From: Ramlibacter cellulosilyticus
GTDB taxonomy: Bacteria > Pseudomonadota > Gammaproteobacteria > Burkholderiales > Burkholderiaceae_C
DNA: 64,000 nucleotides
Assembly: GCF_014297465.1 (NCBI RefSeq)
Contig: NZ_JACORT010000001.1
Coordinates: 434,001-498,000, forward strand
Direction of reading: 5' to 3'
The position numbers were made by a program, and so were the translations under genes. The first letter of the stretch is position 1. The number at the start of each line of letters is the position of its first letter. Shown piece by piece: positions 11,850-14,554 of the stretch. The notes beneath the pieces were generated by a model that was not told the origin of the DNA, ran no database searches, and saw only the letters and a list, made by a program, of their open reading frames with translations.

Positions 11850-12044
11850 CGCTCGGGCGCCCTCCAGCACAGCCGGCGTTCAGTTGAGAACCTTTATCAA
11901 CTGGACCAAATGAATAGCTTTGCTGCATGAGGTGCATTGAGCCTGGCTATTAGACGGCTTCCGGCCGCCTCACTACGCTTGCAGCGTCTTCGGCCCGGCC
12001 GAAGCGCGATGCTTTCCTCTTCATCCACCCAGAAGGAGATCTCC

Positions 12045-12467
12045 ATGGCAGCACTCAAAGGCTCCAAGACGGAAGAGAACCTGAAGGCCGCCTTCGCGGG
12101 CGAGTCCCAGGCCAACCGCCGCTACCTGTACTTCGCGAACAAGGCCGACGTCGAAGGCCAGAACGACGTGGCAGCGCTGTTCCGTTCCACGGCGGAAGGC
12201 GAGACCGGCCACGCCCACGGCCACCTCGAGTGGCTGGAGCAGGTCGGCGACCCCGCCACCGGCCTGCCGATCGGCAGCACGCGCGACAACCTGAAAGCCG
12301 CCGTCGCTGGCGAGACCCACGAGTACACCGACATGTACCCGGGCATGGCCAGGACGGCCCGCGAGGAAGGCTTCGACGAGATCGCCGACTGGTTCGAGAC
12401 CCTGGCCAAGGCGGAGCGCTCGCACGCGAACCGCTACACCAAGGCCCTGAACGAGCTCGCCGACTGA
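12045..12467 (+). CDS. Rubrerythrin-family diiron protein (no rubredoxin domain)
   Basis: A 140-residue ferritin-like four-helix protein that should house a non-haem diiron site and act in peroxide or O2 detoxification. Iron-ligand-type residues are visible in [13 protein letters not shown] (E20), [10 protein letters not shown] (E53, H56), [15 protein letters not shown] (E90, E93) and AERSHANRY (E124, H127). The C-terminal rubredoxin domain of classical rubrerythrin is absent, as in sulerythrin-like forms, so electrons must come from another protein. AAGGAG 6 nt before the ATG at 12045 fixes the start; an upstream open extension lacks homology. The Fe-S protein that follows is the obvious candidate electron partner. 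Confidence 0.9.
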
Positions 12468-12473
12468 CGTTTT

Positions 12474-12508
12474 CCCCCTCCCCCCTGGGGGGAGGGTTGG
12501 GGAGGGGG
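12474..12508 (+). terminator. Two-state C/G hairpin between rubrerythrin and Fe-S gene
   Basis: A striking run of C5TC10-T-G6AG3 type. CCCTCCCCCC (12476-12485) can pair with GGGGGGAGGG (12487-12496) around one T. Alternatively CCCCCTCCCC (12474-12483) can pair with GGGGAGGGGG (12499-12508). The two stems are mutually exclusive. There is no U tract, so it may be an RNA-stabilising or attenuating element, or a dispersed repeat, rather than a true terminator. Confidence 0.5.
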
Positions 12509-12568
12509 CACGCACGGCGCGTCCCGTCCCCAGCCCTTCACCAGAACTCAAAGCTGCACGGAGACACC

Positions 12569-13921
12569 ATGGCCATCCGCGAAGGCAGTCTCGAGGCGCC
12601 CACGCGCCACCCCATTGCCTGGAAATCGCCCGAGTACTACGACGAGGCCGCGACCTTCAAGGAGCTGGAGCGCATCTTCGACATCTGCCATGGCTGCCGC
12701 CGCTGCGTGAGCCTGTGCGGGGCCTTCCCCACCTTGTTCGACCTCGTCGACGAGGGCAAGACCGGCGAGGTCGACGGGGTCGAGAAGAAGGACTACTGGA
12801 AGGTCGTCGACCAGTGCTACCTCTGCGACCTGTGCTACATGACCAAGTGTCCCTACGTGCCCCCGCACGAGTGGAACCTGGACTTCCCGCACACGATGCT
12901 GCGGGCCAAGGCGATCAAGTTCAAGCAGGGGGGCGTGGACTTCGGCTCGAAGTTCCTCTCCTCCACCGACGTGCACGGCAAGTTCGCGGGCATCCCCATC
13001 GTCGTGCAGGTCGCGAACGCCGTGAACCAGACGAAGCCGATGCGCGCCGCGATGGAGAAGACGCTGCACGTGGATCGCAACGCGTGGCTGCCCGCGCTGG
13101 CGACGCGCAAGTTCCGCAGCGCGGCGCCCAGGTCGGCGGACCTGCCGGTGAAGGACGGCGAACGCACGCCGGGCAAGGTCGCGATCTTCGCCACCTGCTA
13201 CGTCAACTACAACGAGCCGGGCATCGGGATGGACCTGCTGAAGGTCCTCGCGCACAACGACATCCCTTACGTCCTCGTGAACAAGGAGCAGTGCTGCGGC
13301 ATGCCGAAGCTGGAGCTCGGCGACCTGGAGTCCGTGGACGCGAGCAGGCGCGCGAACATCCCCGTGCTGCACAAGTACGCGCAGGAAGGCTACGCGATCC
13401 TCTCGGCGGTGCCGAGCTGCACGCTGATGTTCAAGCAGGAAATCCCGCTCATGTACCCCGACGACGCCGACGTGCAGGCGGTCAAGGAGGCGATGTGGGA
13501 TCCCTTCGAGTACCTCGCCGCGCGGCGCCGCGACGGGCTGCTGAAGACCGAGTTCCCGCAGCCGCTCGGCAAGGTGAGCTACCAGGTGCCCTGCCACAGC
13601 CGCGTGCAGAACATCGGCAGGAAGACCGAGGAGCTGCTGAAGCTGGTGCCCGGCACCTCGGTGCACACCAACGAACGCTGCTCCGGACACGCCGGCACCT
13701 TCGGCGTGAAGAAGCCGTACCACGAGGTCGCGATGAAGATCGGCAAGCCGCTCTTCAGGAAGATGGCGGACCATCCGCAGGGCGGCGCGCCGGACTACAT
13801 CAGCTCGGACTGCCCGCTGGGCGGCCACCACATCGACCAGGGGTTCGACCGCAACAGCCTCGGTGCGCCGCGGCTGGAACATCCCATTTCGCTGCTGCGG
13901 ATGGCGTACGGATTGAAGTAG
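12569..13921 (+). CDS. Heterodisulfide reductase-like/GlpC-like Fe-S oxidoreductase
   Basis: A 450-residue protein with two [4Fe-4S] ferredoxin motifs at the N-terminus (C40-C43-C46-C50 in CHGCRRCVSLC; C83-C86-C89-C94 in CYLCDLCYMTKC). Two CCG-type cysteine-rich domains follow. The first contains ATCYVNYNEPG and EQCCGMPKLELGD. The second contains PCHSRVQNIG and ends with RCSGHAGTFG, where the usual second cysteine is serine. The architecture matches GlpC/HdrD-like electron-transfer subunits, yet no catalytic flavoprotein subunit is adjacent. Its neighbours are rubrerythrin and DUF3501, so it probably shuttles electrons to the diiron protein. The ATG at 12569 follows CGGAG. Confidence 0.85.
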   Translation: MAIREGSLEAPTRHPIAWKSPEYYDEAATFKELERIFDICHGCRRCVSLCGAFPTLFDLVDEGKTGEVDGVEKKDYWKVVDQCYLCDLCYMTKCPYVPPHEWNLDFPHTMLRAKAIKFKQGGVDFGSKFLSSTDVHGKFAGIPIVVQVANAVNQTKPMRAAMEKTLHVDRNAWLPALATRKFRSAAPRSADLPVKDGERTPGKVAIFATCYVNYNEPGIGMDLLKVLAHNDIPYVLVNKEQCCGMPKLELGDLESVDASRRANIPVLHKYAQEGYAILSAVPSCTLMFKQEIPLMYPDDADVQAVKEAMWDPFEYLAARRRDGLLKTEFPQPLGKVSYQVPCHSRVQNIGRKTEELLKLVPGTSVHTNERCSGHAGTFGVKKPYHEVAMKIGKPLFRKMADHPQGGAPDYISSDCPLGGHHIDQGFDRNSLGAPRLEHPISLLRMAYGLK

Positions 13922-13963
13922 ATTCATGGGAACAGACCTTCAGCTCCGTCCCCTCTGACCAAC

Positions 13964-14554
13964 ATGCAGACAACCGGCAAGATCACGGCCGACAGCCTGA
14001 TGACGCTCGAGGCGTATTCCAGGTGGCGCAAGCTGCACAAGGGCGAGGTCATCGCCCACCGCAAGCTGCGCAGCGTGCAGCTCGGCGAGCACATCACCGT
14101 GCAGTTCGAGAGCGAGCTGACCATGCGCTACCAGATCCAGGAGATGCTGCGCATCGAGAAGATCTTCGAGGAAGAAGGCATCCAGCAGGAGATCGACGCC
14201 TATGCGCCGCTGGTGCCGGACGGCACGAACTGGAAGGCGACGATGCTCATCGAGTACCCCGACGTGAACGAGCGCAAGCGCGAGCTGGCACGCCTCATCG
14301 GGGTCGAGGACCGCATGTTCGTCGAGGTCGAGGGCCATGCCCGCGTCTACGCCCTCGCGGACGAAGACCTGGACCGCGAGAACGACGAGAAGACCTCCGC
14401 GGTGCACTTCCTGCGGTTCGAACTCACCGCGGCCATGCGGGCGGCCGTGAAGGCAGGCGCCTCGGTCAAGCTGGGTTGCGACCACACGAACTACCCGGCG
14501 CACGTCGCGATGGCACCGGAAACGCTCGCGTCGCTGGCGAGCGACCTGCACTGA
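13964..14554 (+). CDS. DUF3501 family protein
   Basis: A 196-residue soluble protein of unknown function matching DUF3501. It is charged and lacks membrane segments and cysteine clusters; the one cysteine is in KLGCDHTNYPAH near the C-terminus. Recognisable family segments are TLEAYSRWRKLHK, VQFESELTMRYQIQEMLRIE, and a C-terminal HFLRFEL stretch. It starts 42 nt after the Fe-S gene. DUF3501 genes recur beside rubrerythrin and heterodisulfide-reductase-like genes in other Proteobacteria, as I recall, so it is likely the third component of that redox module. No activity can be assigned. Confidence 0.8.
   Translation: MQTTGKITADSLMTLEAYSRWRKLHKGEVIAHRKLRSVQLGEHITVQFESELTMRYQIQEMLRIEKIFEEEGIQQEIDAYAPLVPDGTNWKATMLIEYPDVNERKRELARLIGVEDRMFVEVEGHARVYALADEDLDRENDEKTSAVHFLRFELTAAMRAAVKAGASVKLGCDHTNYPAHVAMAPETLASLASDLH

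Follow-up and report, generated by a model that had tools for sequence, protein, structure and literature searches.

The closest described counterpart of the locus considered here is the 'aerobic-type rubrerythrin' system, RBR-RFO-DUF3501, named by Cardenas, Quatrini and Holmes in 2016, which is reported to be complete in 185 of 4461 genomes, with 25 carrying rubrerythrin and DUF3501 only, and in which RFO, a linked Fe-S oxidoreductase with a CCG domain, was proposed to compensate for a lost rubredoxin domain (PMC5114695). The same study describes an RFO-DUF3501 fusion in Nitrosomonas, Thermoproteales that are without RFO and, in Hydrogenobacter thermophilus, an RFO gene lying apart from the other two; the rubrerythrin of the last organism is ferriperoxin, a homologous protein reported to act as a peroxidase with FNR and NADPH, to be needed for aerobic growth and, when mutated, to give an H2O2 and paraquat phenotype (PMC3317640). 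The trio has also been reported from jakobid mitochondria, with the proposal that the ancestral mitochondrion already had it (PMC7050145), and it is described as adjoining OxyR in Sideroxydans (PMC7852563).

In B. pseudomallei, genes for a hypothetical protein (bpss1837), a ferredoxin (bpss1838) and a rubrerythrin (bpss1839) were reported in 2014 to be up by log2 values of 3.37, 3.31 and 3.36, respectively, ten minutes after exposure to 100 uM H2O2, and to be lower in a sigma-E mutant (PMC4175613). They are probably the B. pseudomallei homologues of the module, bpss1837 being matched to DUF3501 and bpss1838 to RFO because of their gene order and names. The first-pass annotation had treated the present locus as an unassigned redox module of no established function, a description that has to be given up, since the module was described, named and given a likely role in 2016 (PMC5114695), and H2O2 induction of its probable B. 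pseudomallei homologues was reported in 2014 (PMC4175613). Its suggestion of a peroxide-reducing system is probably right, given the activity of homologues, the H2O2 induction and the OxyR-type sites described below. Overall, we consider it probable that the operon encodes an OxyR-controlled peroxide (hydroperoxide) reductase, in which RFO delivers electrons to rubrerythrin and DUF3501 would connect or mature the two proteins.

Gene order and recurrence of the module

The window, by which we mean the whole 64,000-nucleotide stretch of DNA analysed, holds the three genes as co-directional open reading frames (Table 1), just as first described, separated by 101 bp (rubrerythrin-RFO) and 42 bp (RFO-DUF3501). 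Among the near neighbours scanned, all on the opposite strand, FAD-binding monooxygenase-like and glyoxalase-like proteins are encoded upstream and a PMT_2-like protein, GDPD and an ABC ATPase downstream; no flavoprotein subunit was found within the operon, in keeping with the earlier view of an Fe-S carrier without a catalytic flavoprotein. The source genome has a single copy of DUF3501. The spacer between the first two genes (12465-12568) is GC-rich and folds strongly (z -2.9, with 1 of 200 shuffles equally low), and perhaps sets unequal doses of rubrerythrin and RFO.

Table 1. Features of the operon and the DNA before it, by position in the window
Feature	Positions	Strand	Basis
OxyR-type operator-like site, four tetramers, 11-bp repeat	11914..11950	+	13/16 bases
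Rubrerythrin, aerobic-type, 140 aa, no rubredoxin domain	12045..12467	+	PF02915, solved relatives, invariant ligand positions
GC-rich hairpin, rubrerythrin-RFO spacer	12476..12496	+	Spacer folding versus shuffles
RFO, two ferredoxin-type Cys sets and two CCG domains, 450 aa	12569..13921	+	PF02754, fold, ligand table
DUF3501, 196 aa	13964..14554	+	PF12007, solved relative 3fjv

The trio had been described as recurrent in Proteobacteria, and the neighbourhood survey of DUF3501 that was proposed as a check agrees, DUF3501 not being found mostly apart from the other two. Among 299 Pseudomonadota genomes, DUF3501 is present in 17, and the same 17 carry RFO-like matches (E up to 3e-104) and rubrerythrins of at least 82% identity. 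Weaker RFO-like matches occur in nine further genomes (best 5e-39), any rubrerythrin at 1e-5 occurs in 74 of the 299, and the next-best rubrerythrin, 60% identical, belongs to a genome (G247) that is without RFO and DUF3501. By coordinates, the genes are adjacent, on one strand and in the order RBR-RFO-DUF3501 in all 17 genomes, which is more than chance.

Among 250 Burkholderiales genomes, DUF3501 was found in 122, so that the module occurs in about half of those sampled, with RFO (E up to 1e-50) in 121 and rubrerythrin (E up to 1e-35) in 120; all three are held by 119 of the 123 genomes with any of them, presence and not adjacency being counted. The other four are a genome, 78% complete, with DUF3501 only, near a contig edge (G413), one with DUF3501 and RFO on separate contigs (G391), one with RFO split in two pieces and a partial DUF3501 (G521) and one with only a 71% rubrerythrin (G451). 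In G349, rubrerythrin adjoins DUF3501 and RFO lies on a different contig, an arrangement that G493 resembles, but at contig edges. RFO without DUF3501 was seen in neither survey, and DUF3501 is rarely without rubrerythrin, the exceptions being orphan paralogues, two loci (L071 and L072) and fragmentary genomes. The co-occurrence in both surveys upholds the original grouping of the three genes as one module.

A set of loci, mostly from Burkholderiales, was drawn from the best 80 of at least 588 confirmed DUF3501 matches; among these best 80, all three genes are present in 67, RFO in 77 and rubrerythrin in 69 (two on the opposite strand), and in 9 of the 11 rubrerythrin-less loci the DNA ahead of the first gene is shorter than 260 bp. 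In L071 and L072, which have kilobases of upstream DNA, RFO and DUF3501 are present and rubrerythrin is absent from the DNA fetched, L064 and L070 hold rubrerythrin and DUF3501 without RFO, and L055 is cut at DUF3501. Upstream of the two rubrerythrin-less RFO-DUF3501 loci lies a divergent gene (L071 4928-5503; L072 2303-2878) resembling what we take to be the UPF0016/TMEM165 transporter family, and the protein from L071 has no NCBIfam match. Orphan second paralogues of DUF3501, with no rubrerythrin or RFO adjoining, occur in six Burkholderiales genomes, five under one genus label (L123, L125, L126, L127, L128, L129).

Such paralogues, together with phages that have rubrerythrin alone (60 loci among the best 80 of 331, and Mosig, both described below), are what might be expected if the three genes were mere syntenic neighbours with no joint function. 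That reading is already contradicted by the surveys, in which the genes co-occur across the 154 genera sampled, G349 keeps a separated RFO and one genome fuses RFO to DUF3501, and we find it scarcely credible.

Rubrerythrin, RFO and DUF3501 as a predicted electron path

The rubrerythrin matches PF02915 (Pfam, E 2.2e-30) and aligns along its full length (140 of 140 residues) with a solved rubrerythrin of 140 aa, its solved matches being 9onm, 4di0 and sulerythrin. It has no rubredoxin part, and CxxC is present in 0 of 85 distinct bacterial relatives, so that the initial label of a rubredoxin-less protein stands. All seven di-metal ligand positions, the seventh of which we take to be a His, are intact and are invariant across 85 bacterial and 55 viral rubrerythrins. 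The mapping started from sulerythrin residues Glu20, Glu53, His56, Glu92, Glu95 and Glu126 (PMC12851003). For B. pseudomallei, the source of 4di0 (PMC5114695), the rubrerythrin is reported to bind Mn, Co and Fe promiscuously at partly filled metal sites (PMC12585693), and the metal at the di-metal site is for that reason left open here.

Having no rubredoxin domain, the rubrerythrin would receive its electrons from outside. In the reading that we prefer, RFO would take electrons from a flavoprotein, ferredoxin or quinol encoded elsewhere, none being identified as its donor, and would hand them on, by way of its ferredoxin-type clusters and its CCG domains, two of each, to the rubrerythrin, whose di-metal site would reduce H2O2 or organic peroxides; the same direction of flow is envisaged in PMC5114695. 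DUF3501 would bind rubrerythrin and link it to RFO, as an adaptor, or would help to load the metal site, as a maturation factor. RFO probably makes up for the missing rubredoxin domain, much as the first-pass annotation supposed in calling the rubrerythrin and the Fe-S protein complementary; peroxide reductase activity itself is known from a homologue (PMC3317640) and would hold here by analogy. We count in favour of this reading the co-occurrence, which persists in G349, the fusion, the OxyR-type site, the intact ligands and the published homologues, and against it the viral rubrerythrin loci without partners (60 of 80) and the lack of rubrerythrin in L071 and L072.

RFO is recognized as a CCG-domain Fe-S oxidoreductase by PF02754 (Pfam, 3e-14) and by fold, with matches to LutA, EtfD and HdrB; it has eight ferredoxin-type cysteines, and its Fer4_8 match is under the Pfam cut-off. 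An identity as plain GlpC was rejected on missing CCG cysteines and on scores under both NCBIfam GlpC cut-offs (209 versus 278 bits and 147 versus 280 bits). Two positions of the C-terminal CCG domain, 372 and 418, carry Cys in 7 of 7 GlpC comparators and in 0 of 96 RFO sequences, which have two near-invariant histidines instead. The serine of the motif RCSGHAGT (residues 370-377) had been read as a hint of an altered cluster; across the 96 sequences this position is Ser in 89, Ala in 7 and Cys in 0. The part of that claim concerning a changed CCG site holds, as a family-wide trait, whereas the serine as a required cluster ligand was rejected, the Ala-bearing sequences arguing that it is not itself a ligand.

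DUF3501 (PF12007; Pfam, 3.7e-75) matches a solved structure, 3fjv, which is B. pseudomallei YP_111841.1 from K96243, the same strain as the bpss genes, and was released without an assigned function; the fold search gave no second clear match. No Cys is conserved in 39 aligned rows, on which ground an Fe-S protein was rejected, and a score of 18 bits against an RNA-binding protein model (cut-off 140) was taken as noise. A sensor role, one of two first suggested for DUF3501, found no support here. In one genome (G432, locus L119), RFO and DUF3501 are fused in a single 659-aa ORF, suggesting that the two act together; the long fused frame is missing in three genomes sharing its genus label (G102, G467 and G496). 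Dependence looks nested, RFO needing DUF3501, DUF3501 mostly needing rubrerythrin and rubrerythrin standing alone in phages, and this nesting, with the fusion, would put DUF3501 in the middle position, either linking rubrerythrin and RFO as an adaptor or serving in maturation.

A narrower role has to be weighed, in which DUF3501 would be a metal-loading or repair factor, RFO would supply electrons for repair only and turnover would run through a general ferredoxin or FNR. FNR and NADPH suffice for the turnover of ferriperoxin in vitro (PMC3317640), so RFO is not strictly needed, and the solved relative rubrerythrin has partly filled, promiscuous metal sites (PMC12585693); DUF3501, which conserves no Cys that could hold a cluster, also accompanies rubrerythrin without RFO in L064, in L070 and on 21 phage contigs. 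The joint action suggested by the fusion speaks against this narrower role, as does, more weakly, the fact that DUF3501 matches no known metallochaperone fold, and on balance we judge this role unlikely.

An OxyR-type site and peroxide-linked neighbours

An OxyR-type site lies before the operon, matching 13 of 16 bases of what we take to be the four-tetramer OxyR consensus, and 94 bp separate its end from the start of rubrerythrin. No other match with at most three mismatches occurs in the window (0.00 expected) or elsewhere in the 5.5-Mb genome, where a reversed control pattern also matched once per strand; the control having matched equally often, the genome-wide count alone means little and it is position that counts. 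The site is flanked by divergent genes, either of which it could serve.

Upstream regions of relatives were scored in the same way, leaving out loci with less than 200 bp before rubrerythrin or with a match starting after residue 5. Of 86 distinct regions, 30 score at least 13/16 and 46 at least 12/16, with 40 below 12, the corresponding controls for at least 13 and at least 12 being 0.05 and 0.375 in shuffles and none and 0.46 in random 300-mers of the same loci. Across 45 aligned sites the tetramers carry 1.40 bits per column and the spacers 0.19, the sites themselves having been picked by their tetramers; leave-one-out is on that account the fairer figure, and here 2.4-2.7 of the 4 bases in the omitted tetramer agree, versus about 1 by chance (chance estimated). 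Since relatives share ancestry, their sites are not independent events.

The source genome has an OxyR-like gene (62% identity). OxyR-like genes adjoin the module in L091, L095 and L118, their proteins having OxyR as best NCBIfam model at 273, 270 and 246 bits, all under the cut-off of 329, and AhpC and AhpF genes lie beside the module in L095. In 74 flank sets, OxyR-like genes were counted in 1, AhpC-like in 2, YaaA-like in 17 and Irr-like in 5. We take the site and the neighbours to suggest OxyR control of the operon; the scarcity of OxyR-like flank genes (1 of 74), the 40 of 86 weak upstream regions and the reversed-control matches count against it. An OxyR site before this operon is not described in the passages of the Burkholderia literature examined, and the sigma-E dependence of the B. 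pseudomallei genes means that other regulators may act besides OxyR.

A YaaA-like (peroxide stress) gene directly follows DUF3501 on the same strand in L019, L021, L023, L024, L031, L035, L037, L041, L045, L046, L064 and L070, and the proteins of L019, L037 and L070 pass an NCBIfam YaaA cut-off; the association occurs in only some of the Burkholderiales loci and may therefore reflect common descent. In L106, L109, L110, L114 and L115, rubrerythrin is preceded on its own strand by a gene for an Irr-type regulator, and 5 of 5 of these regulators pass an NCBIfam cut-off; L106 is without RFO and DUF3501.

Neighbour genes thus differ between lineages, which would also fit a module that reduces O2 or NO or serves another redox pathway, its peroxide link being shared regulation only; diferrous sulerythrin is indeed reported to react with O2, if slowly (k about 3 per M per s; PMC12851003). 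The peroxidase activity of ferriperoxin and its H2O2 and paraquat mutant phenotype (PMC3317640), the published H2O2 induction, the OxyR-type sites and the YaaA, AhpC and AhpF neighbours all stand against such a use, which we regard as highly improbable.

Phage-borne pairs and described relatives

Relatives of DUF3501 were found on 22 IMG/VR contigs (L130-L151), 21 of which have rubrerythrin directly upstream. No RFO was detected at 1e-5 in these loci or contigs, which are fragments, making the absence not firm. Of the 22, 4 carry a terminase gene and 3 a T4-type capsid gene, viral origin being shown for these contigs only; for contigs of at least 190 kb (up to 400 kb) the figures are 4 of 4 and 3 of 4, and the pair lies inside them. 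Large phage contigs with rubrerythrin followed by DUF3501 are, in particular, L131, L136, L144 and L145. The occurrence of the phage pair without RFO indicates that DUF3501 goes with rubrerythrin first. Among the best 80 of 331 viral rubrerythrin loci, with flanks of at most 3 kb and overlapping the contigs that bear DUF3501, DUF3501 is present in 20, RFO in 0 and neither partner in 60.

An aerobic-type rubrerythrin without DUF3501 is encoded by Pelagibacter phage Mosig EXVC030M (L152, 5995-6420), a phage isolate from an oxygen minimum zone; the neighbouring genes carry ssDNA-binding and baseplate annotations. In a DUF3501 tree of 15 viral rows and 40 of 93 other bacterial rows, the viral rows need two label changes, and a single viral origin appears in 2% of bootstrap trees. 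A single viral rubrerythrin has been reported from silage (PMC10146946), and phage rubrerythrin-DUF3501 pairs were the subject of none of the titles listed in a search largely outside the subscription literature.

A bolder extension, which we put forward tentatively and as one joint proposal, is that the CCG cluster of RFO would be held by three Cys and one or two His (H374, H421), a hitherto undescribed arrangement suited to electron delivery in air, that DUF3501 would dock rubrerythrin to RFO, and that the pairs of large T4-like phages would plug into host RFO, keeping infected cells peroxide-proof. The altered CCG ligands, the OxyR-type site before the operon and the phage-borne pairs all open the module to direct tests.

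Sharing the same three families, their linkage and the lack of a rubredoxin domain, the locus is the same system as that of Cardenas and colleagues, to which the OxyR-type site, the CCG ligand changes, the RFO-less phage pairs and the YaaA and Irr neighbours are added here. Ferriperoxin of H. thermophilus and sulerythrin of Sulfolobus tokodaii are likewise rubredoxin-less, peroxidase activity having been shown for ferriperoxin, and the RFO gene of H. thermophilus stands apart, whereas the three genes are clustered in the window. GlpC, LutA, HdrB and EtfD are CCG-domain electron carriers, and the C-terminal CCG domain of RFO is without two of the five cysteines found in GlpC.
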